A model generated the notes under the pieces. The model did not search any database and had not been told where the DNA came from. It saw only the letters and a program-made list of their open reading frames with translations. The position numbers were made by a program, and so were the translations under genes. This document shows, in pieces, positions 8,836-55,497 of a DNA stretch of 64,000 bases; the first letter of the stretch is position 1; every line of letters starts with the position of its first letter. Origin of the DNA: Mesostigma viride (taxonomy: Eukaryota > Streptophyta > Mesostigmatophyceae > Mesostigmatales > Mesostigmataceae); the NCBI GenBank assembly GCA_009746045.1, contig RPFO01000188.1:2408874-2472873 (forward strand). The letters run 5' to 3'.

Positions 8836-8841
8836 CTCAAG

Positions 8842-15214: not shown

Positions 15215-16215
<1,001 letters not shown>

Positions 16216-20920: not shown

Positions 20921-20948
20921 CCTACACCGTTGTACCGTATGTAGCCTG

Positions 20949-22347: not shown

Positions 22348-22352
22348 CCCTT

Positions 22353-25593: not shown

Positions 25594-25637
25594 CTACATC
25601 ATCCCCTGTAAATAGTCAATCACCCCTTGGGGAAGGT

Positions 25638-26900
25638 GTGCTGGATGTACATAAGGACGGGGGTGTGCCCCTTGTGCAGCACCAAGGGTGTAAAGATGTT
25701 GTTCTTCCACTGGATTGCAATAACAATGCTGCAGCTGAATTCCCTATGCCTCATGCAGGTGGTGGGTCTCCAGCAGGTGCTGGCCTGGAGGGCCAAGGGA
25801 CCTTGCTGGAAGGGCCTGGAGCGGTCCAGGGTGCAGGGCCTGACTTGGGGCGTCAGGACGGCCTGCAGGGAAGCCCTGGAACCTCAGGAGTGGATCATGT
25901 GTCCCCACACACGGTTCAGACGTCTCGCCAGGTCAGTACTGAGAGAGTGCTGAGCTATGCTGAGGCTGGCCATAGGTTGCATCACATGTTTGGGCATTCT
26001 GGGCAGGCAGCAATGTTTGCTTGGAAGCTAGGTAGGGAGCCTTTGTGGGAGGCTTGCCAGGCTGCTGCTGAGAACTGTGGTTGCCAGGAGAATGCTGTTC
26101 ACCCACCTCAGTCCCATGCTAGGGAGCCTGCTAGGGAGCGTGGCGACATCCAGATGGATATCCAGCATATCAGGGGCTTGTATATATTGGTGGGGTGGAC
26201 AGGTTCAGCAGATACAGGCTGATAGACGTTCTGCCTGGTATGCAGGAGCACCACTTGTTGTTGGGTATGAAGGCCCTGATCCCAGGCTTTGGGGTGTGCA
26301 AGAGTGTGCAGGCAGACTTGCAGTTTGACTGTTTGCTCAAGCATCAGGACCAGCTGCCTTGTAAGCTGGTAGTAGTCCCCAGGGAGAGTCATGGGCAGCA
26401 AGGGGCTGTAGAGAGATCCATACGTGAGTGAAGACAGTGGTGCTAGCAGCAGAGTCAGTGCCACTTGTGGCATCTGCCTTAGAGAGGGCAGCCTGGTGTA
26501 AGGGGATAGAAGAGCAGCTGAACCACAGGGTTAACTATTACTTTGATGGTGTGGCTGTCTCTCCCCTGGCCCTGCAGTATAGCTTGTTGCCTGAGAACGT
26601 GGTGCAGGCCAGTCTTAGGAAGGCAGATAGGTTATTTGCCCAGCTGAGACGTAAGGACAAGAACTGGAATGTGCTGAGGCCTCAGGTGGGGCTGAAGGTC
26701 AGGATGTGGAAGGAACCATCTATTCCAGGCAAGCGGGGGAAGTGGCAGGATGGGGTTGTCACTCGTGTGGAAGAAGCTAACAGATCTTGCCTGGTGGCTT
26801 TGGAAAAGGATCCAAGGCACGTGTACAGGTTGTCCTGGGCTCATGTCAAGGAAAGAAGGCCACATGCAATCTGGCCTGCAGACGGGCCAGGCCCTCCCAG
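25638..26900 (+). pseudogene. C2 integrase region
   Basis: A copia-type integrase split over three frames (25638-26222, 26195-26431, then from 26428). The zinc-like segment LHHMFGHSG ... NCGCQ is followed by D in GDIQMDIQHIRG, D in VQADLQFDC and E in HGQQGAVERSIRE. The C-terminal part GKRGKWQDGVVTRVEE runs into LSWAHVKERRPHAIW and on to the retropepsin-like domain in the same frame. Confidence 0.85.
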
Positions 26901-28560: not shown

Positions 28561-29158
28561 GTCGACTTACTGATTCCCAGCTGGTTGAGGTGGGTGCTGA
28601 GAGTGTGGTGCAGGCTGTCATGATGTCTCCCCCTCTATACTGGGTCCTGTGGATTTGTACAAGCCCCTTGACATGGTTCTCTATGTGGACAGTTCTATGG
28701 ATAATAGGAAGGTCACAGAGGTCAGGGGCAGGGCAGCAGCATTAGTTACCCTGGAGCAAGATCACACCTCACTTGTTACCTGGTACAGTCGGTTGCAGAA
28801 CAGGGTTACACCCAGCAGTGATATTGCTGAGTGCAGGGCAATCTGTGAAGGGCTGCATACTGCTCTTTACTTGAGGGAGCTCTTCTACCAGCTATGTCAA
28901 GTGGCTTCCTGTAGGTTGCAGCTGCACACACTGGTGAGGACTGATAGCATGGGCATGGTGCAATTTGTGCACAGGCAGCTGGCCAGGAGCAGGGACCTTG
29001 ACTACTTGTTGCTCAAGGAGATGTCCTACCTAGCTCACATTGAACATGTGCCTGGTGTGGACAACCCTGCAGATGCCCTCACCAAGCTGGAGGAGAAGGC
29101 GGAGAGGCAGTACCCCCTGCTCCGTGGGCTCATGGACCCCTTACACGGGCGGCCATAG
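28557..29158 (+). pseudogene. C2 RNase H
   Basis: Copia-type RNase H: LYVDSSMDNRKVTEVRGRAA, WYSRLQNRVTPSSDIAECRA, LVRTDSMGMVQFVHR and VDNPADALTKLEEKAER at the end. Two frames (28557-28745 and 28649-29158) overlap because of a frameshift near 28650. The C-terminus at 29158 marks the end of coding DNA in C2. Confidence 0.85.
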
Positions 29159-30163
29159 AGACCAGGCCTTGCTTCAGCTTGGGTGTCCCCAGTGGGCTGC
29201 TTGACCAAAGTACCAAGTGGTGACTGGTGCTTACTGGTTGACAGCCGGTCCTTCAGGGTTAGGTACACCCTCCTGGACAGGAGTTGGTGTGGAATGTCAC
29301 TCCTACCAGCTGAGAATCATGCCTGGCCCTCCCCATGGGGTTCAGAAGAGTCGCCAGGACTTAAGTCGACGCCTTTGGCCTCAAACAGTTAGGCCATGCA
29401 AGGGCAACCCGAATGCTGGTTCTTACAGGTTGCTGTATATATGTTTTCTAGTGCTTGTTTCCAACCTGTTGCTAATAAAGAACCTGGTTGTGTGACCATG
29501 TGGAACATGGTTGCCAGGGAGCCACATTCTGGGTTATATAATGCTTGAATAAAACATAATCATGTCATTCTCATGTTGTTCTCATGGTTGTAATGTTTCT
29601 CTTGTGTAAGTTCCAGGTCACCTATAAACCTGGAGGTTGGGGTGGGGTTCAATTCCCCAGCAGAGCCACAGCCTGGCATGAGTGATTCCTGGGCTTAACA
29701 CCCAGTGAAGACATGGGCTCCCCAATAAGGCAGTATTTGCATGGTGCTACCTGAGTCTCTTTGAGCATAAAAGGGAAAGGCTGGCCAAGGCGGGCGCCAT
29801 AAGAACGGGCGCCTGTGATAACTGTGAAAGATCAGGAACTCACAATAATACGTTCTTGGCATCCTTTAATCCCAGCCATTGGACTAGGTAATGTGCCTTG
29901 ACTTTAATCTAGCACCAAGTTCCCAAGGAAAGGTTGGGAGCTGACCAAGGGGTCAGGGGATAACCTGGAGTGACCTCTGATTCACTGGCCAGTACACCTA
30001 GCCTGGTCCAAGGGCATATATGTTGTTACCCAAAAGGAGGCAGGACCCTGGGCCCTATCAGGTCTGATCAACCCCAAGGGACCAAGTGGTCTGTGGCTGA
30101 GTGGGCACAAGCAAGGTTAGGCTTGTTTCAAGCTGGTCCAGCTCCAAAAGAAGAAAGGGTTGG
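29159..30163 (+). other. C2 3' non-coding internal region with T-arm-like hairpin
   Basis: About 1 kb without an ORF. Position 29643-29659 is a perfect 5-bp stem with loop TTCAATT, the same stem as in C1 at 4780-4796. A GGGCGCC pair at 29790-29812 is shared with C1. AATAAA-like signals occur near 29476 and 29551. The stretch ends in GAAGAAAGGGTTGG, which abuts the 3' LTR and probably acts as the purine tract. Confidence 0.6.
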
Positions 30164-30959: not shown

Positions 30960-31500
30960 GCACCAGGTGCCATGGTCATCTGACCTCATTTGGTGACAAA
31001 CTGCCGCCAAATGCTAGCAAAAATGCACTGCTTCACCACATCTCCTTGCAGTTTCCATAGAAGATGTGTTCAGTCGAGGCTGGAAATTTGCAATCACATT
31101 GCACATCATAAATGTAGACATGGCACAAAAACTCAGGTCCATCGTACTGTATTTGGTAACAAAATGCCACCAAATGCTAGCACAAATGTGCGTTTTTCGC
31201 GTTTTTTTCACACATTTCATGACAGTTTTCATACAAGATGTGCTCAGTTGGGGCTGGAAACTTGCAAGCATATTAAATATCATCATTGTAGACATTGCAC
31301 AAAAATCCAGGTCTGTTGTACTTCATTCATTGACAGCTCGCTACCAAATGTGAGCAAAAATGTGCGTTTTTTGCATTTCCGCCACATTTCTTGCAGTTTC
31401 CCATGCCAGATGTGCTCAGTTGAGGCTGAAAACAAGCGCGCATGTTAATCATCATCATTTCAGACATTGCACAAAACTTCAGGTCCATCAAGTGTCATTG
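30960..31500 (+). repeat. Diverged tandem repeat, about 180 bp x 3
   Basis: Three copies share AAATG.TAGCA.AAATG.GC, TTGCAGTTT.CAT, GATGTG.TCAGT.GAGGCTG and GTAGACAT.GCACAAAA..CAGGTC. Copies start near 30990, 31165 and 31335. No ORF is preserved across copies. Located in the subterminal region of T1. Confidence 0.8.
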
Positions 31501-33060: not shown

Positions 33061-33472
33061 GTTGGTATGTGAATATAAATACCACGTGGGCTATGCAGAT
33101 AGGAATGCTAGTCGAGTCGCATACGTTTCCCTAGATAGGTACTTTGGGTACTGAGGTACGTGACAGATGTCAGTACCCAGTATACGTAGTGTCCTGTCAT
33201 TGGACGGTACTAGAGTATCCTAGATAGGGACCGTACTGCAGCGTGCATTGATCTGTGATCGCACGATGCAGTGACTAGACGGCTACCTGTCATCGTGTGG
33301 CCTCGGGCCAACGGTCTGCACCCAACGGTCACTGGCGGCGCAGCCAGTGAGAGGAACGTTGATAAAGGGTAAACCTATTTTCTAATGAACCAAGCATTCA
33401 CTGCTCATTGCATTCACTGTGTCTTCAAGCAATATATCCCGTCGCAATCTAACTTGAATTTTATTTGCTACC
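33061..33472 (+). promoter_or_regulatory. C3 leader / possible LTR remnant
   Basis: A TATA-like ATATAAATAC at about 33072 lies roughly 400 bp upstream of the C3 gag ATG. No second copy of this stretch exists downstream of C3, so LTR status cannot be shown. Confidence 0.35.
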
Positions 33473-36035
33473 ATGGCTATCACGAACAAGAATGTCGCTA
33501 AGAAGCTTACCTACAACGAGGATGATGATGGGCAGGATCGGCGGATGCCCAAAGACAACAACCAGAAGCCGGCTGGCGATGCGGCCATTTCCAAGAAAAA
33601 GAAAAAGAACAAAAAGACTCACAATGTTTGCCAGGACGAGGGGACGGCGGCTGCAAAGCCGACCGACCTACCCCCCTCCCCTGAGAAGCCGGAGGCCGAG
33701 ACGGCTCCCCCCCGGGGGACCGGCTTACCCTCGACTCCGGCGGCTGCCCCAGCCGCAACCACGGCTGGCGCGGCCATGGCTGCGGAGCCCTCGGTGGTAA
33801 ACCCCACTGAGGCTCCCCAGTTCGGCCCACAGTTGCCAACTATTCGGGAGCTTCTGCCCCGTCAGACGGCTTCGGTGGCACCGGACGGGACGATTACCTT
33901 TCGTCCCGCCACATCTGATATTCGTGCTCCCTTCGCTCAGGGACACAACCACTTTGAGCTAACGTTTGGACGACCTCTGCTTCCCTTCTTCGCAAGAAGA
34001 AGGACATGGAAAGCATTAAGCTCGCACGGGTGGTGCGTAAACCCGTGGAGCCCATCGGCGGACAACCAATGTCCGACGATGAGGTTTCCGACACTGCCAG
34101 TCTCCCCGATGGGGAGACTGCATGAGATCAATCTTACCCCAGCGCTCCTGGCGGTCGAGCAGGCCGCGCTGGTGGCTAATGAAGAACGCCGAGCGAGGCA
34201 GCGGACCGGAGGTCCGCCGAGAGGCGGCTTTTCGGCTCGCCGCTAAGCGGCAAGAATATGAGGAGGAGGCCGCCCGTCGCCTGGCCACCCACCAGGCGAT
34301 GGCGGAGGCGTACCGCGAGGCCACTCAGCGGCTACGTGACCTCCTCAAAAATGCTGACTATCCCATGGACTATGCGGATGGTCAAGACCTGGCCGAGCTT
34401 GCTCGGTCAGCACATTTTAAAACCATGTCCTCCATAACCCAAGCCAGGGTCACGGAGGCCATCTTGGCCAAACATGGGGTGGTAGCTGAAGAAGCCCCCC
34501 CGCTGGAAACCACCAGCAAGAAACCCTCTCCCCCCAACCCTGCAGTACAAGGAGGGACTGCTGGCCCTGGGCCGAGGAAGGGCAAAGAGGCGGACTGTCC
34601 AGTCCGGCCTGCTATGATCATGGGAGACCCACTCCCTGACATACCCGAGGATGAGGCTGCCTTTCAGGCAGCCCTCCGGGAGCATGAGGTACGCAAGGAG
34701 ATGAAGCGTCTCATGGGAGGAGGCCAGGAGGAGAGCGGCGGCAGACACCCCTGCCCGCCCCTCCACCGATGGGGCTGGACCCAGTGGGGTTACCCGGACA
34801 CCCCCGGGCTCCCCCGGGCCACCACGGCCCCCCTCCCCCTCCCCCACCACCCCAGGTTCGCCCTGTGGGTTGGGGCCCCCTCCCCAACCAGGGGGGTGGC
34901 CAGGACCCCAGGAGGCCCTGGGGGGAGGTGCAGAGGTGCCCAGGCACCCAACCTGCTGAGGCCCCCCCAAGGAGCGGGGATGTCCTGGAACAGCTCGCCA
35001 TTCTCCAGGCTCAGCTGGCCTCGTTGCAAGACCAGCAGTTAACAGCTAACCAGCTGCAAACTGTCGAGGGCCTGCGCGCCCTGATGTCGCGGTATGAGCG
35101 GGGGACCATCAACCTGGACCCCACCCGCCTGCAACAAGCAACCGACGCTTCTTGAGGGCCAACCCCCCTCTCACAGGTGTGTTTAACCCTCATAAAAAGG
35201 AATCCAAAATCAATATTGCTGGCTTGCCTGAGGGTCACACTGTTGAACAAGCTAAGCAATTTGTCTTTGCTCTGGAGTATGGGATGGAAGGTCTTAACCT
35301 TAGACATCAGTTTAAGGCTCTCAGGGCCTCCTCCACATTCCATCAATCATCTCCTGCAATTAGAGCATTGATTCAAACCTATCAGGAACGCACCCTGACA
35401 CCTGAAGCAGCCATTGAACAGTGGCCTACCTTTATCACTGATCTGAAACAGCTAGTGCTTACCAATAACCACATGGAAGCAGTAGAACGTTTCAACTGGC
35501 TTGCTGCATATAAGGTGAACAAGAATAACCTCTCTGGGGATGCAAAAACATACAGGGTAATGATTGAGAAAGACCTTGAGCTTCTCAAGCTCCAACCAAG
35601 GTATCTCATCCACACCTGGCTAACAAAAGCTAATTTGCAACCTTCTGTCCTGGCTACCCTGCTTACAGGCCTCAAGTCCCTCTGGGACAACTTCAGAGCT
35701 GCCATGCTCTATATCGAGGAGGCAGTGGACCCCCTGGGTACTGGCAACCCAGGCCCAGGACCCCAAGGTCCAGGGTGTCCAAGGCCACAAACGCAAGGGG
35801 CAGGCCAGCCAGGGGGGGCACCCAAGACCCACAAGTCCTCCCACCAAGGGGGCAGTGGCTCTCAGGGGCGTGGCAACACGTGGCACCGTGTGCCCCTGCA
35901 TGGCAACCCCAACAACAACAACAACAACAATAACAACAACAGGTCCCAGCAGGGCAATAACAACAACAGGTCCCAACAGGGCCAAAACAACAACAACAAC
36001 AGGTCCCAGCAGGGCCAGAACCGGTCCCAGCAGGG

Positions 36036-36072
<37 letters not shown>

Positions 36073-36249
36073 CCAACCTGGAAACCCTGGCCACGGTGCC
36101 TGAGGTGCTTCCAGAGGGGCATACGGGACAACTGCCCCAACAACGACTCCCTGCCAACGTGGATCTCTGCCCGGGTTGCTGGCACGCACGTCATCCCCTG
36201 GGACCTCCTGGCAGCCGTGCAACAGGACTCGCTACCAAAAACAATGTGA
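33473..36249 (+). pseudogene. C3 gag
   Basis: The start is ATG at 33473 (MAITNKNVAKKLTYNEDDDG). A Lys-rich N-terminus is followed by Pro/Ala-rich sequence and a helical charged region (AAKRQEYEEEAARRLATHQ), all broken by frameshifts near 33960, 34120 and 35040. The part from 35152 is better preserved and has capsid-like sequence (PEGHTVEQAKQFVFALEYG, ERFNWLAAYKVNKNNLSGD). AAC/CAA microsatellites at 35915-36075 encode Asn and Gln runs between RSQQG repeats. It ends with a cysteine pair (CLRCFQRGIRDNC) resembling a degenerate zinc knuckle that lacks the His. It is much longer than C1/C2 gag and only distantly related. Confidence 0.7.
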
Positions 36250-37468
36250 GTTCTCTCACCTTGCTTACTCTGAGGATGATGATCTCATTACCATTGGGGA
36301 TGGCAGCCAGGGCATAATTGATTTTGAGGCAGCAACCTTACTGTCCTCCCAGCACCCTGTACTGGAACCTTACATAAAAGCACTAACCCCTACTGTTGAC
36401 AACTCCATAGATATCAAGGAGCTTGCTCATCAGCTGCACCTAGCCATGGGTCATGAAACAGTGGCTGAGGAACTGGCCAGACGGCTGGGGGGTAGTAGCA
36501 TGGGAAAACAACTCAGGAATGCAGTAAAACTGGCTAGACAACACTGTCAAGAATGTCAGTTCAATAGCCCCAAACCTCAAAAATGGCATACTGCAACTCC
36601 TTCCACCAATAGGGGCATGATAGTGGGGGATGTGATGCACATCAACAAAGATGTCCAACCCTACCTGATCCTAAAAGACTCATGGTCCAGGTTCACAGTA
36701 ATGGAACCCCTACCTGGCATGTCTGCAGGGCAGCTACGTGTTGCACTCATGATTGCTTTACCCAGATTCTACCCAGTTGACAGAATTTTGCTTGATCAAC
36801 AATTTTCTTGTCTGACTGACCTGGAAGGGTGTGAAGCAATAGAGATTGCTGGGCTGGAAGATCATGAGGGTCAGGGGGTCATTGAAAGAACCATCAGATC
36901 TGTCAAAACCCTACTAGCCAAAAATCCTTCCAAGGATGCTACTTCAGGGGTCTATTGTGACAGGGCACTCTGGTGTCATGAAATGTGCACAACCCTAAAC
37001 ATGAGACCTGTCTTGCATGCCACGTGGGGTGAAGTAATCCCAGCAGGCCTGCAGGCAGGTGTATATCCCCCAGAGGTGATAGCACTGTACAACACTGCAC
37101 GTGCACAAACCTCAGCAAAACTGGCAGAAAAAGATAAAACCCATTCCAGGCCAGTATTCCAAAAAGGTGATCAAGTTCTCTATTACAAGGAAAACAGCTT
37201 TGGTAAGGTTGGAACTTGGCTAGGTCCAGTTACCATCCGTGGATTTACCAAAAACAGCAAGACCGTGGAGGTCAAGCACAATATCAATGGGAAGCGTCAC
37301 AGGGTGAGCTGTCATAGAATTAAGAAGTATTATTCTCCCATGGCAGACGTGCCTGGGGAAGAGTCTTTAAGCATGGACTCACTACTTCTATCTGGCAACT
37401 CCAGCATGCCCAGCAGTAGCCTGAGCCACCAATTACTGCTGTTGACAGCACCACAGCACCCTCTGTGA
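36176..37468 (+). CDS. C3 integrase
   Basis: An open frame of 430 codons overlapping the end of gag in another phase. It has HQLHLAMGHE ... HCQEC as zinc-binding segment, then catalytic D in GDVMHINKDVQPY, D in ILLDQQFSCL and E in DHEGQGVIERTIRSVK. The C-terminal part has FQKGDQVLYYKENSFGKVGTW and RHRVSCHRIKKYY, like the integrase tails of other LTR elements. It is intact in this stretch. It overlaps the next ORF by 4 bp (37465), suggesting termination-reinitiation or a former fusion. Confidence 0.85.
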   Translation: MLARTSSPGTSWQPCNRTRYQKQCEFSHLAYSEDDDLITIGDGSQGIIDFEAATLLSSQHPVLEPYIKALTPTVDNSIDIKELAHQLHLAMGHETVAEELARRLGGSSMGKQLRNAVKLARQHCQECQFNSPKPQKWHTATPSTNRGMIVGDVMHINKDVQPYLILKDSWSRFTVMEPLPGMSAGQLRVALMIALPRFYPVDRILLDQQFSCLTDLEGCEAIEIAGLEDHEGQGVIERTIRSVKTLLAKNPSKDATSGVYCDRALWCHEMCTTLNMRPVLHATWGEVIPAGLQAGVYPPEVIALYNTARAQTSAKLAEKDKTHSRPVFQKGDQVLYYKENSFGKVGTWLGPVTIRGFTKNSKTVEVKHNINGKRHRVSCHRIKKYYSPMADVPGEESLSMDSLLLSGNSSMPSSSLSHQLLLLTAPQHPL

Positions 37469-39115
37469 ACCCTTCCACCCTCAGTGAAGCCAGGCCCACT
37501 TCACAACCTGGGGATTGCTTAACCAGGCACGAGGTAGCTGGGTTGGAAGCATTAGCTCAGCCCCAAGGCACCAAATTGTCTGCCAACCCTCCCGCTCTGA
37601 GGTCAAGATTGGCAGTCGCCTTGCAAGCATTACACAGGTCACATAAGCAACAAGCTGCTGTGGCCGCAGGGTTGGCAAAAGTCTCAGCTGTGTGCACTAG
37701 TCAGGACCCCTGGACCCTGGCAATAGACACTCAGGCACAGGTCAGTGTGATCAGTGCACAAGCCATCCCTGGTCTTGAGATTGCACCTTCATTTTGGGCA
37801 CGGGTGCAGGATTTCTCAGGCCAAAGCTCACTGGATGTAGTGGGACAAGTGATGCTCCCTATACTTGGTATTCAGACACCCTTCCAGGTGGTGGAGGGGT
37901 ACTCTGGTAACACCTTGTTGGGGGAACCTTTTGTATCCTATCCTGGGGTGCTTATCTCAGCTAATGAGCTCAGTGTCACAGGGGTGGGTGCAGTTCCTCT
38001 GGACCACTTTAAAATCCCTCTCTCCAGTATTGTCCCTGGTATGGATGCTGTCATCAAGGCAGTCAACACTCAGTATGCACCAGGGGAGATCCCTGATCTG
38101 GACAAGTTAGTGCACAGCCAGTTCCTCCATCCCTCAGCCTTTGGGCTGGGTAAGTGGGACATAGCCATGCACTCACCCCACCAAATCTCCCACGTCATAC
38201 AAGAATGCAAAACACAAAAAGGGTTTACCAAGTGGCTGATGGCCATTGTCCACCAAGCCAGGCAGGAATGGGTCCTGCCCAACCCCAAAAACCCTCAATA
38301 TAAACCGCCTGTCACCCCTTCATGGGAAGTGCCAGAGGGAGCCAAAAAGCTCAGATTAAAATTTGTTCTCAAACAAAAACCACAAAAAGTGGGCTCCCCA
38401 ATCTTCCATGCCAGACCATGTGTCACAGAATTAAAGGGGACATCCACACTACCAAAAGGGGAAACCTACACACCTGGGCTGCAACAAACCTCACTCAGGA
38501 TCATGCTCTCCCTATTCCTCCACAACCTTAATGCAGGCCAAGACTATGTCTGCAAAGCCACTGACATTAAACGGGCCTTCCTCAGGGGGGACCCAGAAAA
38601 GGCTGAATCTGTGTGGAAAGGGAAGGTGTACGTGGTAGACACCCCAGCTGTGTGGAAGCCTTACATTGATGAGCCCCACCTTATCATCAACATTGGGGTG
38701 GAAGGGCTTGTCAGTGCCCCAAAAATTTTCAGAGACTCAGCAGAGGAAGTATTCAAAAAGCTTAAGGCCACGTATGATGACCTGGACCCATGCTTTTTTG
38801 TTGTACCCACCCCCTCTGGACTGCTGCTCTTTGTATGGCATGGAGATGACCAACTCATTTGTGGGCCTAGAGCTGAGGTGGAAACCTTTATTCAGCAGGT
38901 CCAGGAGTCATATGAGATTGGCAAACAGGTGGAATTGAGCACAACCCCCATCCAGTTCTGTGGCATCATGTTGCAGCTGCATAGGCAGCCAGATCAGTGG
39001 GTCTGCTCTCTCTCCCCTCCTGCAGAATACATCCAAGATTGTCTAGATCTGCTGCAGGATAACTACCTCCCCTTACACATGTGTGCCACTGTTCAGGGCA
39101 AACTGGGGTGGTGGT
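37465..39115 (+). pseudogene. C3 retropepsin-like domain and reverse transcriptase
   Basis: It begins with ATG at 37465, overlapping the integrase stop. The first domain is retropepsin-like: AIDTQAQVSVISAQ near 37725, VQDFSGQSSLDVVGQVMLPI, and TLLGEPFVSYPG. The RT follows with FVLKQKPQKV, DIKRAFLRGD and the active site FVWHGDDQLICG (HGDD). Coding similarity stops at 39115, where the 39116-40890 insertion begins. As in C1 and C2, the protease-like domain follows the integrase, and the DTG glycine is replaced, here by Gln. Confidence 0.87.
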
Positions 39116-40890
39116 TTGTTAATCATCCCACGGTCCTAAATTTAGGACTTTGTCCTAAATGGTCCTAGTGGTCACTATAACCGAGGTACCGGGGGGGGGG
39201 GGTCACTATATGGACCGTACCCCATGTGGACCGTACCCGGCATGATGTACCCGACCCGTGGTACCGGCACATGGTACCCGGATTCCGTACCCGGGTACCG
39301 GGTATAATGGCGGGAAAGTAGGTACCTCGACCAAAAATATAACCGATTTTGGAGCGAAAAAGTGGGTGCGGGAATGAAGTGAGGTGGATATGGCGACCTG
39401 ACAATCGTGGCCGGCGTTTTCACGTGCGTTTATCATTTCGGGCGCCCAGTAGCAAAAACGAAAGGTTGTTAGTTATGCTTAAAGGCTGTGAATATTTTCT
39501 GCGCAAGTTTTTATGTGTAGCGCTGTATCACAGCGGCACAACACAAATGGGTCGCAGATCGCCTGCTCGCGGAGGGTCGATTTTGGCACAAACATGTTAG
39601 TGTATTAGCAATGGTGCTGCGAATCAAGCCAGGAAATTTTTGTGGACGATTTTTATTATAGTCTGGAGTTTAGAAACGGAGTATTTGACATGGGAGCGCC
39701 TGGGCCGTGATATTCTTGCCCGATTTCCATTGTCGACCATGTTTTAGGGACGTTCAGGCTGGGCAGCGAGCGCACCTTATAGGTCTTCACTTTCGGTATT
39801 TCTTGGACCTAGAACGCAGCACAAGCGTGGTTTATATCATTGTCGAACCGGTTGGCCAGCTTTGGTGCGCTCAGCTCTCGGAAAGCTGACCTCGCTGCGG
39901 ATTTCAGCGACTTTTTTGCAACCATCTGGAATGAGGCGACGTAAGTAGCAGGTAAGTGCCGGGTTGTCCTAGATCATGAGTGTAACTGGCAACGCTGTCG
40001 TGGTGTTTTGAGTCAGCCAGCTATGCCTAAAAAGAGGGGACGCTCTCTGTGCACATAACTGTCACACATAGTTGGTTTACGTCATACAATTTTTTACGTC
40101 TCTATCTTCGTCGTCCGCTGCAGCTAAAACACACATGCGTAAGAGCAGTTTTACTCATGTGTATGTTATAAACCATGGTCCTATGGCCTGCAGTCGTTCA
40201 GGGTGTTCTCAGACAGTATATACAGTATGGTTTACGTGTTACATGCACCCTGAATTCGCTCACAAAGCGTTGCATGTTAGCACAACGTTGTTTTGTAACT
40301 TGATTTGGCTGCATTCATGCGTTAGTTGCAATGCAAATGCAATGTTTTTTCATCGCTGGGTGGTGGCCAGCATGTCCGTGATGTCAAAGAAGGTTTGGCA
40401 TATGCTTAGAGAAAGTTTATCGCAAGGGGTGGGCCATGTTCAAGCCGGGCAACCTCAGCAACCATGCAACCCTATATTGCATTACCTGCACCATCTGTGA
40501 CACCGTTAATCACGCGTATATATAGAGGCAGCCACAGCAGGGTATGGCCTTGTTATACGCTGCCCCGCCATCCCAAGGCCTCGTAGGGTCCCCTAGCGCT
40601 TGTAAGATGCTCAAGGGACCGTGTGGATAGCATGGTCATGCGTCGACAATAATTGGTCCTAATGGTCCTAAAACCCACATTTTGGCCAAATTCGCGCTTT
40701 GAGGTCTGGCAGGTGGCAGGGCCCACTCATGCACTAAATGTAATTATTTGACCCCAGGTTTTTTATAGAAACTAAAAAAGTGTGTTATCTGTCATGGGCA
40801 CGAATGCCAGGGTCAAATTTTAATGTTTGCATATATATTTTTTAATTCCACTTGGTCCTAAATTTAGGACTTTTACTGGGAAGATGGACA
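39116..40890. mobile_element. 1.8-kb insertion in C3 with 108-bp flanking duplication
   Basis: The 108-bp coding segment 39008-39115 is repeated without visible change at 40891-40998, and C3 reading resumes after the second copy. Near both ends lies the palindrome GGTCCTAAATTTAGGAC (about 39132 and 40854). The left part has a cluster of GGTAC/GTACC motifs (39184-39305). There is no ORF of note. The long duplication is far beyond ordinary target duplications, so origin by break repair or replication slippage is possible. Confidence 0.75.
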
Positions 40891-42603: not shown

Positions 42604-42728
42604 GGTCGTGGAAGTGCCCACCGTGGTTGTGGCCTGGTGCACAGATTTAAGGTTGCTGCCTTGCAACATTGGCTAAGCCGTGCTGTGAAAGACCAAGAGC
42701 TCACATCCGTTGGGAGCTCTTTCTAACT
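42604..42728 (+). repeat. C2 3' LTR, right part
   Basis: Matches the last 125 bp of the 5' LTR (22872-22996), ending TTTCTAACT, followed by the TSD CCCTT. Confidence 0.93.
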
Positions 42729-44065
42729 CCCTTCCTGGAACTTGCAAGGGAAAGCGCCCATCTGCTGGGGATGTGCCCTGATGGCCTCGAGCGCCGCTTC
42801 TTCCGTGACCGTGAAACGACTGATCATCGTCTCTAGGTCCGACGTAACTGTGAACGCGTCCTCGGCCGAGTCCTCCGCATCCGTCCTCGCCTGGTTGACG
42901 AATTCTGAGAAGACTGTGGGGGGGCCGAGCGGCTGAAGCTGAAAAATTCCCTGGGGCGGCACCACATGACTGAGGGGCACGCGCGTATGCGACCCCTCCC
43001 CCTCCCCGGGGGTGTCCACGTCCTCGTGGGCGCTCTGCCGAGCCGGTTCATCCAGGAGGGGTGACAAGTCATCCATGGTTGTGTGCCCGAGATGATGAAA
43101 CAGGTGGCGGGCTCGGGGGGATCGTGGCTCCGCGCCATAGGCGGTCCCCGGGGCGGCCACTGGTACACAAGTGGTATGAAGCACGTCCATGTCCTCGTAG
43201 AACCAATAGTCCGCCCGTCGCGAGAGGGCGTCTGGCACCACATTGTCCGCACCCTTGACATATTGGATCTTGAACGGGGCAAATTGCGACAAGTACTCCA
43301 TCCACCGCGCTTGGCGGGGCGTCAGATTGCAGGGCTGCACCAGGAGGTGGGTGAGGGGCCGGTGGTCGGTGTGGATCACCAGGCGGTGGGGGTCGAGATC
43401 CCCCTGCTCGCTAATGGCCACCGAAAACTGGGCCCCCAAAAGATGATGACGCCACTCGTGTGGCAGCTGTAAACTACTGCCAGGAGTTCCTGTTGATGCA
43501 CTGGATAGTTCCGCTCAGCCGGAATCATCGTGCGTGAGATGTACTCAATGGGCTGAAGGCCCTTGCCTTGATCCTGCAGGAGAACGCCCCCAATGGCCAC
43601 CTTGCTGGCGTCGGTAGCCACGACAAAAGGAAGGAAGGGACGGGTCCGGCAGGACGAGGACAGGCGCTGTGGTGAGGTGGCGCTTAAGTGCCTCGAAGGC
43701 CTGCTGGCACTGCTCAGCCCACAGGAACTGGGTACCCTTCTTGAGAAGAGCGTTGATCGGGGCGGCAATGGTGGCAAACCTCGGAATGAACCGTCGGTAG
43801 TAGGATGCCAACCCCAGAAAACTTCGCACCCCCTTCACGTCCGTGGGAACCGGCCATTGCTGGACGGACTCGATCTTCTCCGGGTCGGTCGCGATGCCGT
43901 CCGCGGACAGGGTGTGGCCCAGAAAGGGCACGCAGCGACCGGCGCGCACCTTAGCCTTCCGCGCCGACAGGTGCTCGTCTTCCATAATCTGCAGCACCGC
44001 GTCAACATCCTCCAAGTGCTCCTCGAACGTCCGGGAGTACACCAGAATGTCGTCCAGGTACGCCA
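42729..44065 (-). pseudogene. G1 reverse transcriptase C-part and RNase H
   Basis: Starts at the RT active site AYLDDILVYSRTFEEHLEDV, then the connection FLGLASYYRRFIPRFATIAA, then RNase H with VVATDASKVAIGGVL, QELLAVVYS and VIHTDHRPLTHLLVQ. It ends with YVKGADNVVPDALSRR and a linker cut by the C2 insertion. Frameshifts near 43620 and 43440 break it. Removing T2 joins ...CAL to AYLDD in frame. Confidence 0.9.
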
Positions 44066-44079
44066 CACTAGGAACTCGG

Positions 44080-44400
44080 CTTTGAGAATGGGTGAGAAAT
44101 GGTGAGATAAAGGGTGAGAAAGGTGAGAAAAAGGGTGAGAAATGGGTGAGAATGGGTGAGAAAGGTGAGAAAACAGGGTGAGAAATGGGTGAGAATGGGT
44201 GAGAAAACACGTTTCTCACCCGGGTGAGATTGCCCCAAAAAGGTGAAAAAAGGGGAAAAACGTGAGAAAAATCTCAAAAAACAGGACGTGAGATAAGTGA
44301 GAAAAACGGGAGGTGTGAAACGTGAGAAAAGTGAGAAAATCAGGACGTGAGAAAAGTGAGAAAAACAGGACGTGAGAAAAGTGAGAAAAGTGAGAAAACA
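44080..44400. repeat. T2 left subterminal GTGAGAAA array
   Basis: More than twenty variants of GGTGAGAAA and CGTGAGAAAA. The matching array in opposite orientation occupies 49795-50095. Probable transposase-binding repeats. Confidence 0.8.
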
Positions 44401-45915: not shown

Positions 45916-48775
45916 CCCCTCAACCGTCTTTGACTCGTGACTAAAATGAGTCACGAGTTGCACAGTATGCCACAGGTGCCCCCATTCAGCCTAATTATTT
46001 TTTCTAGACCATACTAGGAACCAAGCATAACCATATTAGGGCCCACCTGGGGGTATAGTGGGTGGTCCCAGTGCTAGCCCCCCCTGCTCTATAAATAGCC
46101 CCCCCCTCAGGGGGGTACGGTGAGTGTGCGCGGTGACACCCTTATAATGGATGATAGACCCCTTTCCTCAATGAGTTGACCCTGGGGTTGGTTTTGTAGA
46201 TAGATTTTTTAGTTAGGATGGGATACAAACACTAAAAATTGTAACTCCCCCAGGGACCCATCAGCTGGTGCTAAAAATAACTGGTGACTATTTCGAGTCG
46301 CGAGTTTTTGGGGGGCTAAAATAGGCATCCTAGTGCAGTTTTGAACATGGAAACGATATGCAAGCATGGAGTATGGGCAAACATGCATGCTAACACTTAT
46401 TCCAACCTGTGTGCCACCAATACCTGCCATAACCACTACAGGTCCCTGCCGGATATGATTGGAGACGACTACGCGCGGGCCGCGAGTACGGGGTTCACAA
46501 CCTTATCATACATGATGGAGCACGTATACCTTGGATTTCACCCTAGTATTTCAGGGGGGACTGCAACTGTACCCAAGCACTACATCCAAACACTTACATG
46601 TCTTGTTTCACCCAGGGACCCACAAGATAATGCTAAAAATAGCTGGTGACTATTCTGAGTGACCAGTTTGGGGGGGGCTAGAATAAACATCCTAGTGCAG
46701 TTTTGAACATGGAAATGATAGGTAAGCATGAAACATGCATGATTATGTTTATTCCAGCTCCTATGTGGCACAAATATATGCCACAATAAGCGTAAATGCT
46801 TGCAGACCCGCTGATACTGTGGTACTTATTTTTACATGCATGATGGACCTTGCACACAAAGTCAAAACATCCCAGCACTCCTAGATAAATTAGTGACCAA
46901 GGGACCATGCATGCAGTAACACTGAAAATTGCCAACTAGAAATAGGTGGCACTGTGACCATCACGGAGCAGATTTTCAAACTGCACAAGTTATGCATAAA
47001 CATGAAAGCTAATAAGACATGACCATGAAACAATAACCCATGCAGGCTAACAACATGAAACCAAATAACACATGCACAGGTGGGTCCATGAAACAATAAC
47101 ACACACTTCAAACCATGCCGGCCCATGGTGATACACGGCGCGCATGAGCGCGGGCAGGAAAGGCCAAACGCCATGCCACGTAGGCAACAAATGCTAGCAT
47201 TCTTAGTCAGCCTCCGTAGGACTATATCCCAGGCGGACATGCTCCGCCCTGAGATGGCGGCGCCGCGCCACCCCCTTGAGCTTCCGGGTGGTGGCTGCTG
47301 ACCCCTCGTGGTAGTGGCGCCCTTGAAATTCTTGGCGCATTCGCCACGCTGGGAGAGGCGCTGCCATACCCGCTGCTTCGTCACGTTGAAGTCCAGCCCC
47401 TCCACCTGCCCGGAGTGGAAGAGGCCGAAGCAGTTCCGCTCGCTGTTGCTGCAGAACGCCATGTCACAGTGCTCGCACATGACCGAGGTCTTGTGCTTCC
47501 TGCCTTGCGCGCAGCACAGTTGGCACAGCACCTGCTCCACCCAGAAATTTGCCCATCTCATGCATTGTTAAGGGGTGCCACTCACGCTCACCTGGCTTGC
47601 CCGCCCCCTTGAGCTCAGCATAGTCGTTGGTCTCCTTGACAATCTTGGCCACGACATCACGTTGGGACCAGAAAAGGGAGAACAGCCCGAGGGGCCCAAA
47701 CTCGAGCTGGGCAGGGGAAAGGTTTTGATAGCAGGCGGTACCCGTCATCGGCGACAGCACCGGAGTATCGGGAAAAGGAAACACACCTGGCTTGCCGAAA
47801 CCAGATTTCCAGACAGTCTCGGCTGGCTCCTCAGTGGCAGGAGTGTCGTTAGGAAAAACGAATCATCGAGCTCAGCCTCACCGCTCGGCACCGGACCCTC
47901 CGCACCCTTCTGGTAAACAAAGTCGTCATCGGAAGCGTCCGAGACAACGCTCTCGCTGGCCGCCGCCTTGGTCTGACGGCGCCTTTTCGGGGCGTGGCTG
48001 ATGGCTGGGTTCTTCTTCGGGTTGCCGACAGCGCGCTTCCCCGGCTCGCGTCGCTTGACCGGTGTGGGCAGCTCGATATCCTCGGATTTGTCGTCGTCGT
48101 CCTCGCCGGCGTCAGAATCGCTATCCTGGCCCTGCTCGCTATCATCGTCACTGCTACCTGCCGTTGGGACCTTCCTGGCGGCGCATTCTTTCACTAGAGC
48201 TTCGTACTCATCTGAGCTGCACGAATATATGAAAATCTGCTCACGGGTGAATGGGTACGTGAGCTTGTCGTCCGGGAAATAGCACCGTGCACCATCTCCG
48301 GACCTGTTCACTGTCACTACCTTGCCCGGCAAACGTACCTCGCTTTGTTTTTCCCCATACTGCTCTATCGCCCAGTCTCGTCCGAATTTTTCCACAGGCA
48401 CTGCCATGAAAATGCCCTTCTTTACCTTGAAAGTCCGTATATCTGCCTGCATTTCGTCCGCCATGTCTACGTCCGCGCTCCCCCCTTTTTTCGCATCCTT
48501 CGTTTTCGTACGTTTTTGTCAATTTTTTTTACCGCCCAAACCTGCATGCACCAGGGTACCCTGTTGACTTTGACCAGGGTTTCCACCCTGATACGGTGGT
48601 CAAATACGGTCAGACAAGTGTCCTACGGATAGAGTGAATCTAGATCTTTTCGGTGGTCTAGTTGGTTCCCGCCAAAACCCTCCCGCCAAATCCCTACAGG
48701 GCGCACAAACTCATGCCGAATGTGAGGCATGAGAAAAACTCGCAGTCGAAAATCGGCACGAGGACGGTTTAGGGG
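45916..48775 (-). mobile_element. Internally deleted piggyBac element
   Basis: TTAA lies at 45912-45915 and 48776-48779, with ends CCCCTCAACCGTC and GACGGTTTAGGGG (one mismatch in 13 as inverted repeats). TTAA target sites are diagnostic for piggyBac. The 2860-bp copy carries the transposase N- and C-terminal parts on the minus strand but no catalytic core. A second, diverged direct duplication lies inside (about 46245-46385 and 46610-46750). It cannot supply active transposase but keeps both ends, so it could be moved in trans. Confidence 0.93.
46890..48464 (-). pseudogene. piggyBac transposase remnant without catalytic core
   Basis: ATG at 48464 opens a basic/acidic N-terminal region with GGS-free Ser/Asp tracts and a nuclear-localisation-like PKRRRQTK. 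After a 1-nt frameshift near 47865, the piggyBac domain begins: LGLFSLFWSQRDVVAKIVKE, then YAEL...EWHPLTMHEMGKFL. There the sequence jumps directly (about 47560) to the C-terminal cysteine-rich domain VLCQLCC...KTSVMCEHCDMAFCSNSE and NCFGLFHSG. The intervening DDE/D catalytic region, several hundred residues in family members, is missing. The C-terminal frame runs on to 46890 but is probably not real beyond about 47200. Confidence 0.85.
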
Positions 48776-50108
48776 TTAATGCATGTTACTTTTTTATTCT
48801 TCTGCATACAAATATGAAGCAATGAGGTCGTGTCCTCCGGATTTTTGCATTTGCACCGTGTGCAGTTCTTGGACGTTTGGAAACATGCATGATGGCATGT
48901 GGCTAATGTAATGACTGACTAGCTAGACCGTTTCAGTGGTTTTTCATTTGCGGGTATTTCCTCGTAAATGGTGGGAAAGCGATCGCAGCAATGGTTCTCA
49001 CCACTAGACACTCCCGGCCAGTGAAGCTCGAAAAACACGCCCTGATCAAGCAAGCTGTTTCCGGCCCCACTGTATAGGTCATCTTACAGTCGCTCTTTGC
49101 GTAAGCCAGCCATAATTTCAATGAACAAGGCTACACATTTGCATACTCTTTTCTTGGTTATCGGTGTGCCTTTGTTTGGATGCAGGGGGGATCGCTGTGC
49201 TGACACAACGCGTTCAACGTGCTGGGCATCAACAATCCTGACGTCCCAAGGTGTACTGGAGGGGCGGGGACCTGATGATCAACCACAAGATGTGGACGCC
49301 CCCTGCGGGCTAGAATAGCCCTAGCTTGTAATCATTGGTAGTCTCTGCCGCCATGGCAGCCATGCCTAGAATGTTTGCCTAGCTGAGCCATTATACCTAG
49401 TCACGTGCACCGCTAACACACGGTACACAACCAGCCATAGCCTTAGCTTAGTCCTTGTACAACCATGCTACGTCATGGCTTTGCTCAGATTACTTGCCCA
49501 CGCACCTGTTATGATATGCTCACATGGGTCTTATTGCACCCACAGATTGCCGGATCGTTTATCGGGTCCAATAGCAGCTGCGACATGCCTTTGGCATGAA
49601 GGAGAAAGGGGGTCTGTGCCCTTCCTGTTGTGCACACACAGGGATTAAAAGCACTTCGGTGCTCCGTGACCCAACGGGAGCACGAGTTTAATTAATCATG
49701 TAATTAATTTATTAGTGGTGCTGAGTTTATTTTCACATAAATGACTTAATGAAATAAAGCTCGTGATTTTTCTCGTGTTATACTCTTGGTGAGAAATTTC
49801 TCACCAATTTGACTCGTGATTTTTCTTGTGTTATACTCTTGTGAGAAATTTCTCAAATTTCTCACTTTTTCTCACTTTTTCTCACTTTTTCTCACCCATT
49901 CTCACCTTTTTTCTCACTTTAGGGTTTTTTCTCACCCCAATCTCACCAAAACCCCCTTTTTCTCACCAAAATCTCACCCTGGTGAGATTTTTTTGCTAGT
50001 GTTTGCGGAAAAAAATTGAGATTTTTCTCACTTTTCTCACCAAAATTCTCAAAGGGGTGAGAAAATTGAGGGTTTTTGAGAATTTTCTCAGAAACTGAGT
50101 TCCTAGTG

Positions 50109-51411
50109 CAGCGCGCACGTGCGCTTGTAGGTCCATGGTGGGCGCGCCCCCTTCTGCGGGTCCGTCAGGTCCTTGGAGACCTGCGGCAGGTGGGCCGTGC
50201 CCATCACCGGACGGAGGATGTCGTTCATCAGCATCTGGAAAGACGCAGGCGAATTACACAGGCCCATTGCCGCCACCCGAAACTGGTAGTGGCCGAAGGG
50301 CGTGGCGAACGCGGTCTTGTGGCAGTCCTCCGGCGCGATGCGCAGCTGCCAAAACCCGTCCGCACAGTCGATGACGGTGAAGCACGTAGCCCCTTGGACA
50401 CGGTTGAAGATGTCGTCGATCCTCGGTAGGGGGTATCGGGACTTGACAGTGATGGCGTTCAGCTTCCGGTAGTCAGTCACCAAACGCCACTTGCCCCCAG
50501 GCTTGGGAACGAGCAGCACGCCTGCTGAGAAAGGGCTGTTGCTTGGCTCAATGAGCCCGGCGTCGAGCAGCGAAATGAGGATCTTCTTGAGCTCCACCAG
50601 CTCGACTGGACCCATGCGGTACATGGGGGACGCTGTCGGCCCGGAACCCTCCTGTATACCTGGATACGGTGTAGCACCGAGCGATGGGGAGGGAACTGGG
50701 GCGTGCGGTCCGCGAAGAGAGTAGCGCGCTTCTCCAAGACGGCGTTGAACCGCGCCAGCTCGTCCGGAGTGAAGCCGACGCCGATCTCGTTGAGCATGGC
50801 CTGAGTGCTATCCAGGTCTATACGGTACATCGCATACTCCTTGCCCTTCCGAAGCTGGCGTGCCAGCGTCTTGCTACTCATCAGGATCTGGGACGCTGGT
50901 CGAGGCTCGTCCGCCGAGCGCTCGTGTGTAATGTTATGTACCTCGGCGGCCTGTGCCCTGTACTCACTGTCGGGGCACCAAAAGGATCCATCCGGAAACC
51001 AAACTACTCGTCGGCGTACACTGATGTCTACATCCTGCTTGTCCAACCAGTCCACCCCAATGATGATGTCTGCAGCGCCCAGCGGCGCAATGGTCGCCGC
51101 CAAGTCCACCGGTGTGCCTTGCAGCACGCCCTTGATGTCTGCCAGGCCTGGCGATTGGTGTCGCCGGCCATCCGAATAGGTCACATGCACTGTCGTGTTG
51201 TGCGGTCGTGGGGTCAGACCCAGCCGGCGCACCAGGGCCTCGTTGATGAAGGACGTGGAGGCGCCGGTGTGGAGTCACCAAAAACTTCACGTCCATGACC
51301 GTTTTCTCCTTCAAATACGGATCAAGGACGGTGGGAGGAACCAATAACCCTCCACTGAAAAGAAACAAATGTCGCGAACCTCCTTGAGATACGCGCGCCG
51401 GTTGGGTGGCC
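50109..51411 (-). pseudogene. G1 protease and reverse transcriptase N-part
   Basis: The aspartic protease region includes ASTSFINEALVRRLGLTPRP and AADIIIGVDWLDKQDV. The expected D-T/S-G motif near 51268 is disrupted: the DNA reads as GACTCC in one frame and HTG in another, pointing to a small indel. RT follows with VELKKILISLLDAGLIEPSN, VPKPGGKWRLVTDYRKLNAI and TPFGHYQFRVAAMGLCNSPA. Between the last motif and YLDD lies an unusual insert of about 30 residues (GTAHLPQVSKDLTDPQKG...). A frameshift near 50640 separates protease and RT. Cut by T2 at 50108 and by the palindrome array at 51411. Confidence 0.88.
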
Positions 51412-53517
51412 AGTTAGGTTAAATAGTGCCGGAACCTTTTGCCGCCTGAGGCAAATCGGTCCGTAACACTATTTTGCCCGGAATAACCACTTCCGAGCAC
51501 CCAAGTTAATTCGGCCGAATTAACTTGGGTGCTCGGAAGTGGTTACTCCGGGCAAAATAGTGTTACGGACCGATTTGCCTCAGGCGGCAAAAGGTTCCGG
51601 CACTATTTAACCTAACTAAAACCTGGCCTCGTGGAGGGTGGGTTGAATATGAGACATCCGCCTAGGCCACTGAGCACGCACCACTAAATGCGCCGGAGCT
51701 GTCCGGATTCGAACCCCTGACCTCCAAGGTGCACAGGTTTTAGTTAGGTTAAATAGTGCCGGAACCTTTTGCCGCCTGAGGCAAATCGGTCCGTAACACT
51801 ATTTTGCCCGGAATAACCACTTCCGAGCACCCAAGTTAATTCGGCCGAATTAACTTGGGTGCTCGGATTCAAGTGGTTATTCCGGGCAAAATAGTGTTAC
51901 GGACCGATTTGCCTCAGGCGGCAAAAGGTTCCGGCACTATTTAACCTAACTAAAACCTGTGCACCTTGGAGGTCAGGGAGTTACGTTAAATAGTGCCGGA
52001 ACCTTTTGCCCACTGAGGCAAATCGGTCCGTCACACTATTTTGCCCGGAATAACCACTTCCGAGCACCCAAGTTAATTCGGCCGAATTAACTTGGGTGCT
52101 CGGAAGTGGTTATTCCGGGCAAAATAGTGTGACGGACCGATTTGCCTCAGTGGGCAAAAGGTTCCGGCACTATTTAACGTAACTAAAACCTGGCCTCGTG
52201 GAGGGTGGGTTGAATATGAGACATCCGCCTAGGCCACTGAGCACGCACCACTAAATGCGCCGGAGCTGTCCGGATTCGAACCCCTGACCTCCAAGGTGCA
52301 CAGGTTTTAGTTACGTTAAATAGTGCCGGAACCTTTTGCCGCCTGAGGCAAATCGGTCCGTCACACTATTTTGCCCGGAATAACCACTTCCGAGCACCCA
52401 AGTTAATTCGGCCGAATTAACTTGGGTGCTCGGAAGTGGTTATTCCGGGCAAAATAGTGTGACGGACCGATTTGCCTCAGTGGGCAAAAGGTTCCGGCAC
52501 TATTTAACGTAACTAAAACCTGGCCTCGTGGAGGGTGGGTTGAATATGAGACATCCGCCTAGGCCGCTGAGCACGCACCACTAAATGCGCCGGAGCTGTC
52601 CGGATTCGAACCCCTGACCTCCAAGGTGCACAGGTTTTAGTTACGTTAAATAGTGTCGGAACCTTTTGCCGCCTGAGGCAAATCGGTCCGTAACACTATT
52701 TTGCCCGGAATAACCACTTCCGAGCACCCAAGTTAATTCGGCCGAATTAACTTGGGTGCTCGGAAGTGGTTATTCCGGGCAAGGCCGAATTAACTTGGGT
52801 GCTCGGAAGTGGTTATTCCGGGCAAAATAGTGTTACGGACCGATTTGCCTCAGGCGGCAAAAGGTTCCGACACTATTTAACGTAACTAAAACCTGTGCAA
52901 CTTGGAGGTCAGGGGTTCGAATCCTCACTGAGGCAGCTCCGGCGCATTTAGTGGTGCGTGCTCAGCGGCCTAGGCGGATGTCTCGGGCTCTTCGTCCCCC
53001 CTCCACGAGGCCAGGTTTTAGTTACGTTAAATAGTGTCGGAACCTTTTGCCGCCTGAGGCAAATCGGTCCGTAACACTATTTTGCCCGGAATAACCACTT
53101 CCGAGCACCCAAGTTAATTCGGCCGAATTAACTTGGGTGCTCGGAAGTGGTTATTCCGGGCAAAATAGTGTTACGGACCGATTTGCCTCAGGCGGCAAAA
53201 GGTTCCGACACTATTTAACGTAACTCAGGGGTTCGAATCCGGGCAGCCGATCCGGCGCATTTACATTTGCGTGCTCAGTGGCCTAGGCGGATGTCTCATA
53301 TTCAACCCACCCTCCACGAGGCCAGGTTTTAGTTGGGTTAAATAGTGCCGGAACCTTTTGCCGCCTGAGGCAAATCGGTCCGTCACACTATTTTGCCCGG
53401 AATAACCACTTCGGCCGAATTAACTTGGGTGCTCGGAAGTGGTTATTCCGGGCAAAATAGTGTGACGGACCGATTTGCCTCAGGCGGCAAAAGGTTCCGG
53501 CACTATTTAACCCAACT
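51412..53517. mobile_element. Composite array of seven perfect palindromes with tRNA-like spacers
   Basis: Seven palindromes of about 206 bp lie at 51412-51617, 51742-51951, 51979-52184, 52309-52514, 52639-52887, 53020-53225 and 53331-53517. All are centred on TTCGGCCGAA except for rearrangement in the last. They are separated by spacers of up to about 130 bp that also start AAAACC and end GGTTTT. The whole block has a TGGCC duplication at 51407-51411 and 53518-53522. Each palindrome begins AGTT and ends AACT. Spacers 1, 3 and 4 are in one orientation; spacers 5, 6 and the short spacer 2 are in the other. No ORF. It sits between gag and protease of G1. Confidence 0.93.
51618..51741. repeat. 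tRNA-like spacer (type unit)
   Basis: On the minus strand the spacer has GGGGTTCGAATCC, an exact match to the pol III B-box consensus GGTTCGANTCC, preceded by TTGGAGGTCA as in tRNA T-arm regions. Some 50 nt further on is TGGCCTAGGCGG, one mismatch from an A-box consensus. The boxes are therefore in the order B then A within a spacer. Similar units: 52185-52308, 52515-52638 (same orientation), 52888-53019 and 53226-53330 (reverse). Confidence 0.7.
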
Positions 53518-55497
53518 TGGCCGCGTCTGAGCCGGAAGCCACGTGATTGACGTCTACCTCTAATCTAATTGACTCCGCGTCAGGGCTACCATCTGATTTC
53601 TCTACCCTACCATCTACCCCGGAGCCCAATCCCACGGGTAAGGCTACTCCCGAGGAGCGGTGGGACGGGAGGCCGCCTCGCCCGACCGCCCGCCCTCTTC
53701 CCCCCCCTCCTCCTCTTCGTCAGGCTGCCTCCTCCTCGTCTTCATACTCATAGCCCGCCACGGCGTGCGTCGGACCGGAAGAGGAGGACTGTCGCCGCGC
53801 CTCAATCTCGTTAACCGCACGCAACACGCCCTTGGTGGAGCTGGTCGCGGGCGGTCGCGGCTGCTGGTACTGGGTCGGAACTTGTCTGGCATGCTGCAGG
53901 CGAGCCGCCCGCTCGCCCGCGTTGCGGGGTCTGTCCCGGGGACCGGAGGAGTCGGGGCGGCTGCCGAATGCTGGGCCAGAGAAGCGAACACTGGGCTCAG
54001 TCTCCCCTGCACCGCGACCGGCGTGCTTGCCCCGGAGCTTGGGGCAGTCACGCTTGAGGTGCCCCACCTCGCTGCACATGAAGCACCGCGCCTTGCTAGC
54101 GTCAATCGCATTGATACCCTGGTCAGTGTAGCCATCATCAGGGTCGTCGAGGTAGTCGTCCTCCTCCTCGCCGGCGAACTCAGTGGAGTACATTTGATTC
54201 ACCCGCCGCGGGGGAGCTGGCCTGAAGAAACGGCGCACTGAGGGTGCGCGCCCGCGAGTCACCACATCGGCCACCTGCAGCAGATATCTCTGGATGTTCA
54301 AGATGTCCCACTCCTCCCAAGGAACCTCAGCGTAGTGCTTCAGTGCCTCGTCCTGCAGCTCGGGACTGAGTGCCTCGATGAATCTGATCTTGTACTCGTA
54401 CCAGGTCATGTCGGTCAGGTAAGCGGCGCTGGACTCAAACTTGGACAGAAACTCGCGATACGGAGTGGTCCCCTGGCGCAGCTTGCCGAAGGCGAGTCGC
54501 TCGTGGATTACCGCGTCTGGGGGTACCAACTTGCGGCGCACCCGGTCCATCAACTCCTCCACGGTTTGCGGGTACGACTGGGATGCGATGCTCTCACAGT
54601 TCAAGATGCTCACCACCGAGGGGTTGCAGGTGTTGACCACATGCGGGATCAGATCACAGGTGGCCAGTTCCCAGCTGTCGTGATTGCACCAGACGGTATA
54701 CTGCTGTTGCCACATGCCGGACCCCATTCGTCGACCTCTCGCGGTTTCATGTCTGCGTGCAGCTTGGGAACATTCTTGAAGGTAGGCATCGGTGGGGCCT
54801 TTACCGTGTTGATCTTAGGGCCACCGACCTCTCTGTAGGAGATGGAGCCGAATGCTGGGGGCTGCGACCGGGGGAGAGATCCGGATCTGGCCGGCGTACC
54901 GTGCGTCCGCCGCACCTGTACCGCCGATGAGGGGTGTTCATACCCCGGGTCATCCAATGCCACCCTGCTGAAATTCAGATTGCTGACGGTCGCGGGCGAA
55001 GGGACCACGCTGCTGTCATACGCTCGTGGACGCTGCGGTTGGGGTACAGGGCGCTGGACGGGCGTATGAGTCTCCTCGTCTTGGGCGGTGGCGCTACTTC
55101 TGTCATCCCCTAGCCGGGCCCGTGGTCTATGGGTACCAGCGGGCGGACCCTGTGTCCCTGGCTCCTCGTCATCCTCACCGGTCCCTTCCAGATCGTCGAA
55201 CTCGCCATCTGCCCCTGGAATCTCACCGTCATCATCCAAATTCCATAGCGCCGTGGGTAACAGGGAAGTACTGCCGAAGGACACTCTACGTCTGCCCCGG
55301 TGGGTGGAGACCGGCGGAGGTCCCTGGGGACGCCCCCGCCCCGCCCAGGGATGCAATGGCCGCCCTGTGGCGGGCTGCTGATAACGGTAGTGCAGGGTGT
55401 CATCATTCTCGTCTCCATGCTGCTCAGGGTACTGTGGTAGCCATTGTGGTCTCGTCTGAGGTTGTTGTTGCTGCGGCCGGAGCTGCTGTTGTTGCCG

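Follow-up and report, generated by a model that had tools for sequence, protein, structure and literature searches.

The palindrome block at positions 51412-53517 of the window (the whole 64,000-nucleotide stretch of Mesostigma viride DNA analysed here) consists of two nested insertions of one element family. We consider it very likely that this element is a high-copy, non-autonomous DNA transposon of the foldback type, with long terminal inverted repeats, and that its usual mobile copy is p-S-p-S'-p, in which three palindromes (p) are separated by a spacer (S) and an inverted spacer (S'). Its copies have 5-bp target-site duplications (TSDs) and empty sites, its three-palindrome layout occurs in two families with one dominant polarity, and the window holds a nested pair.

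The block contains seven palindromes with spacers between them. Each palindrome is built from an arm, A, of 103 bp followed by its reverse complement, with AGTT at the outer end and CGG meeting CCG at the centre. A first-pass annotation had described seven perfect palindromes of about 206 bp; the number is correct, but "perfect" is too strong, because p2, p5 and p7 are altered near their centres. Only p3 (51979-52184) and p6 (53020-53225) are 2 x 103 bp without any mismatch. The arms of p1 (51412-51617) differ by one mismatch and those of p4 (52309-52514) by two, and the inverted match around p4 reaches outward to 52301-52522. Four additional bases are present near the centre of p2 (51742-51951), a duplication of 43 bp begins at the centre of p5 (52639-52887), and about 19 bases are gone near the centre of p7 (53331-53517). 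Complete spacers are 124 or 132 bp long and fold as imperfect hairpins, and two of the six gaps between palindromes hold mere pieces of one spacer.

These two pieces reveal the nesting. The outer element starts with p1, a type 1 spacer of 124 bp (51618-51741, minus strand, with a B-box-like motif on that strand) and p2. Its right spacer, on the plus strand, is broken after CAGGG (51974-51978) and resumes with CAGGG (53226-53230), so that the left piece (51952-51978) corresponds to positions 1-27 and the right piece (53226-53330) to positions 22-124 of the type 1 spacer, with p3 to p6 in between. Because the spacer is split and CAGGG lies on both sides of p3-p6, we resolved the block into an outer element, p1-S-p2-S'-p7, and an inner element with the TSD CAGGG, p3-S-p4-S-p5-S'-p6, which sits in the right spacer of the outer one. 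The inner spacers are two of type 1 (52185-52308 and 52515-52638, both minus) and an inverted one of type 2, 132 bp long (52888-53019, plus). The outer element is flanked by TGGCC at 51407-51411 and 53518-53522, the duplication already reported around the block. Its host is a retroelement, with a gag-like zinc-knuckle frame (53720-54814, minus) on one side of the insertion and an aspartyl-protease frame (50477-51274, minus) on the other. We fetched the four best other matches for this host retroelement (L074-L077), and all four show an uninterrupted site with one TGGCC, their flanks being identical to the window at 50, 50, 50 and 48 of 50 positions on the left and 50, 50, 49 and 49 of 50 on the right. 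The earlier view of a mobile sequence with a 5-bp TSD is borne out by these single-TGGCC sites and by solo palindromes elsewhere in the genome, which carry 5-bp TSDs of their own, as a check proposed with the first-pass annotation had sought.

The genome from which the window comes comprises 439.9 Mb in 2,243 contigs. For a 24-base motif from the outer end of the palindrome, it contains 1,166 exact matches in forward and 1,182 in reverse orientation (2,348 together), and the reversed control has none in either direction, which excludes chance. Since each intact palindrome contributes one forward and one reverse end, there are about 1,170 family-1 palindromes, a lower bound for family members because it counts exact matches. 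From the genome we fetched 27 loci by family matches (L006-L032), 14 by spacer matches (L033-L046) and nine short pieces (L047-L055), and left out L010, L029 and L044, whose flanks are the same or nearly the same as those of L007, L026 and L040. The three genome searches scored the best 40 of 467, 1,140 and 638 candidates; the fetched copies are mainly best-scoring matches, so that young, intact copies are over-represented in the tallies below. Neither a transposase nor an autonomous copy turned up among the copies fetched, three lone end motifs traced in search of an autonomous partner (L053-L055) proved to be ordinary or older copies, and viral contigs have no exact match to a 21-mer of the arm. 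One of the traced copies (L055:9-584, contig G000:C58) belongs to a more diverged subfamily; its two spacers are alike, and its middle palindrome is without one arm, lost at the centre.

Every fetched copy with both ends readable, solo palindromes included, has a 5-bp duplication. A script found it in 27 of 28 listed elements (a list without L006, L010, L026 and L029, of which three are incomplete and one is a duplicate), and the 28th, the solo palindrome of L014 (420-535), has CAGGC on both sides; two 5-mers match by chance with a probability of 0.0011. TSDs are also present in L034, L035, L037, L039, L040, L041, L043 and L046, and likewise in the dropped L044; in this second set L033, L036 and L045 are incomplete and L038 runs off the fetched piece. 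Among the short pieces, L050 and L051 have TSDs, and L047 has CCCCC within a C run, which is uninformative. In the second family described below, seven of nine copies have a TSD (one of the seven being CCCCC in a C run), and the other two have one end outside the fetched piece. We also compared the flanks of 26 other insertions with all fetched loci and the window. A clean paralogue with a single TSD exists for seven of these (both insertions in L008 and in L031, L012, L028 and the L014 solo palindrome), four have tandem-repeat matches only (the L014 dimer, L016, L023 and L025), three match poorly at the junction (L011, L018 and L020), and 12 have no paralogous match in the fetched loci or the window. 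The element thus has a TSD of fixed length, precise empty sites and terminal inverted repeats, the marks of a Class II TIR transposon. The window itself holds two uninterrupted counterparts of occupied sites, at 26511-26621 for the solo palindrome of L028 and at 29078-29192 for the dimer of L012.

The usual copy measures 866-882 bp and is, as a whole, one long inverted repeat: two inverted halves of about 433-441 bp are joined at the centre of the middle palindrome, and a 206-bp palindrome stands at each outer end. Long inverted repeats thus make up most of the element, as in foldback-type transposons. Shorter forms are solo palindromes (L028, L047, L050, L051 and the damaged solo of L014) and p-S-p (L013, L017 and L025), and longer forms than the usual one occur in L018, L021, L022, L031, L034, L038, L040 and L043. 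With the two spacer orientations written s and S, those family-1 blocks in which two spacers were scored (some blocks are incomplete) comprise 23 s...S, one SS (L041) and no S...s. Blocks with more spacers are ssS (four), sSS (two), sSsS (one) and ssSsS (one, cut off). In blocks with at least two spacers the outer palindromes adjoin the CCTGGCC end of the spacer, L041 being the exception. Within 12 intact dimers the halves differ by 0-17 changes, with a mean of 7.6 against 11.8 to other loci, and four (L007, L015, L019 and L022b) have unlike halves with 14-17 differences, so that one half is often not a copy of the other. Given this mixed result across the 12 dimers, we dropped half-to-half identity as proof of self-copying.

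A second family has a different spacer, of about 240 bp, in the same layout, and its arms can be aligned to A with many changes. Among the matches listed, 40 loci of this family, grouped by hand, comprise 33 with the spacers "+ then -" (one of them with an extra -), one "- - -", six singles and no "- then +". The singles are a chimera (L042), three monomer-like copies (L078, L081 and L082) and two that break off at the palindrome centre (L079 and L080). In L083, too, a second-family arm stops at its centre, beyond which the sequence is unrelated. At G000:C2133:2628323-2629648, three second-family units stand in a row in one orientation, as against the usual inverted pair. In the chimera, the left half (palindrome, spacer and arm) is of the second family and the right half of family 1; the halves meet at the centre, each retaining a few bases beyond its own centre, and GGAGG, read by eye, lies on both sides. 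A 22-mer across the junction has one match in the genome, so the chimera has not multiplied. Its matching TSD suggests that the union of inverted halves can precede integration; alternatively, a conversion tract may have spanned the whole right half once the element was in place.

As a rule, long perfect palindromes are unstable and end up broken or lost, whereas this genome contains about a thousand. Among the fetched copies, the 68 terminal palindromes show 0.38 differences on average between their arms and the 40 internal ones 1.25 (Mann-Whitney P = 2e-4), with p3 and p6 of the window scored as internal by the script. When 253 outer ends were traced inward, the script called the palindrome lost in 54, of which about 21 are, by our own reading, point variants or small indels, some rows being two views of one event. 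Fourteen of the losses fall within seven central positions of the 206 (P = 2.5e-9, calculated against all 54); a cruder version of the count put 14 of 86 losses in ten positions (P = 7e-5). At L032:4132-4888 (G000:C36), 183 bases of the left host flank are repeated without a mismatch, in inverted orientation, behind a p-S-p element; the terminal 29 bases or so of an arm come next, with the TSD GAGGG after them, and we infer that the inverted flank is a record of snap-back copying. Because losses cluster at the centre, two families are joined in the chimera and a flank was apparently copied by snap-back, hairpin processing probably reshapes the arrays. With about 1,170 family-1 palindromes, and fetched copies that range from perfect to broken, the family lends itself, as a natural experiment, to the study of how stable palindromes are, how hairpin tips break and how snap-back copying proceeds.

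The following mechanism could account for these observations. A putative transposase, supplied in trans, would recognise the ends 5'-AGTTASGTTAAATAGTG... and insert the element with a 5-bp stagger. Every palindrome presents a pair of outward-facing AGTT ends, so any segment that runs between palindrome ends could move, and copies with one, two, three or five palindromes would follow from this. Extruded hairpins might be cut at the tip and rejoined, or might prime snap-back copying, and this would explain the central losses, the inverted flank of L032 and the chimera L042. Through such breakage, rejoining and copying, halves would come to have mixed origins, units would be added and arms lost, while the terminal palindromes would stay symmetric. 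More tentatively, the family may copy itself, or be assembled, by way of hairpins: the opened hairpin tips of two halves, even of different families, would be joined before integration, and the transposase would then insert the inverted dimer with its 5-bp stagger. A DNA transposon of this sort would pass through a hairpin-dimer intermediate, and that would explain the persistence of about a thousand long perfect palindromes.

Somewhat less probable still, in our estimate, is that the copies are rolling-hairpin products, replicated outside the chromosome through terminal hairpins and then integrated as a p-S-p monomer, an inverted dimer or a tetramer. Parvovirus-type genomes have terminal palindromes and form inverted dimers, in which inverted units share one palindrome. 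Terminal palindromes and inverted concatemers are likewise seen here, as are inverted units with one palindrome in common; the terminal palindromes are symmetric, the length series includes the monomers of L013, L017 and L025, the 23 sS dimers and the alternating tetramer of L022, both spacers of L009 have a private base in common, and the chimeric dimer L042 has a matching TSD. However, the same length series is expected from unequal recombination between palindromes, dimers with unlike halves occur, and the four ssS and two sSS blocks, like the inner element of the window, are not directly predicted. Unlike parvovirus-type replication, the system studied here makes a 5-bp TSD on insertion, has three-unit and mixed blocks, and has yielded no replication gene or coding copy among the copies fetched; its clean 5-bp TSDs point to a transposase.

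It is very improbable that the seven palindromes moved together as one array, although TGGCC does match at the outer ends of the block. The CAGGG duplication, which brackets p3-p6 and splits a spacer, led us to reject this reading; in addition, the inner arms (p3-p6) start with AGTTACG and the outer ones with AGTTAGG (p1 and p2) or AGTTGGG (p7), and no completely fetched block has seven palindromes, L038 leaving its piece after five. The proposal of the first-pass annotation that the whole block inserted as a unit, or grew from one inserted copy, thus gives way to a separate insertion of p3-p6 with its own TSD. At the fetched loci, copies most often consist of three palindromes and two inverted spacers, not of a seven-palindrome array.

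We give almost no credence to an origin as a tRNA-derived SINE or SINE-like retroelement, a reading suggested by the spacers, which carry, as read by eye, the B-box-like GGTTCGAATCC and a D-arm-like GCTCAGTGG. ARAGORN found no tRNA in the window and, when relaxed, gave unspecific matches only; Rfam returned nothing at the gathering score, and at a lax threshold the sole tRNA-related match was a partial tmRNA (E 0.7). Rfam miRNA matches were set aside, being below the gathering score and reflecting the hairpins. No tRNA-related head could thus be detected; furthermore, both ends are the same AGTT...AACT palindrome with no simple or A-rich 3' tail, the TSD is fixed at 5 bp, and none of the fetched copies combines a simple terminal tail with TSDs that are long and variable. 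An assembly artefact or in-place satellite expansion is just as improbable: palindromes and tandem repeats are indeed prone to assembly errors, but dozens of loci share this anatomy while their flanks and TSDs differ, paralogous empty sites are precise, and contigs reach 14 Mb, many of the loci lying in contigs of several Mb.

As a probable foldback-type DNA transposon, the element resembles several known systems. To our knowledge, no transposon family has ends that match AGTTASGTTAAATAG. Like the element studied here, snap-back MITEs are short, non-coding and present in high copy, with near-perfect inverted arms; their form fits the solo 206-bp palindrome, whereas the usual copy here is an assembly of three. 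Galileo, a member of the P superfamily in D. mojavensis, is described as having long TIRs with repeats inside them and 12 chimeric copies whose 7-bp flanks do not match (PMC3573991), and Tetris, from Drosophila, as having repeats of about 220 bp within the TIRs and no known autonomous copy (PMC4079207). Our element has in common with both the long TIRs, the internal repeats of varying number and the mostly non-autonomous copies, with Galileo the chimeric copies, and with Tetris the failure to find an autonomous copy (PMC3573991, PMC4079207). It works like these foldback-type elements, by likeness rather than by assignment to either. Its TSD is 5 bp as against the 7 bp of Galileo and the P superfamily, and its chimera L042 has matching 5-bp flanks, in contrast to the non-matching flanks of the Galileo chimeras (PMC3573991). 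It also differs from both in that a 206-bp palindrome forms each of its ends and no middle separates the halves. At the level of titles and abstract openings, the literature searched holds no description of this layout, which is no proof of its absence from print.

The window also contains other repeats. Ty3-like pieces lie at 18331-22350, 42723-44273 and 50103-54814; the first includes an integrase with H2C2 and rve domains (21037-22350), the frames of the second resemble reverse transcriptase/RNase H by eye only, and the third provides the protease and gag frames around the palindrome block. A further frame, at 47748-48518, matches no Pfam family. Three copia-like (RVT_2) elements, two on the plus strand and one on the minus, were placed approximately from reading frames at 5603-9645, 24905-28560 and 33458-39168, with RVT_2 matches below the Pfam cut-off. 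A 174-bp tandem repeat is present in 2.6 copies at 31047-31489, and at 15467-15904 a (TC)n run gives way to about 340 bases of (CCAC)n.
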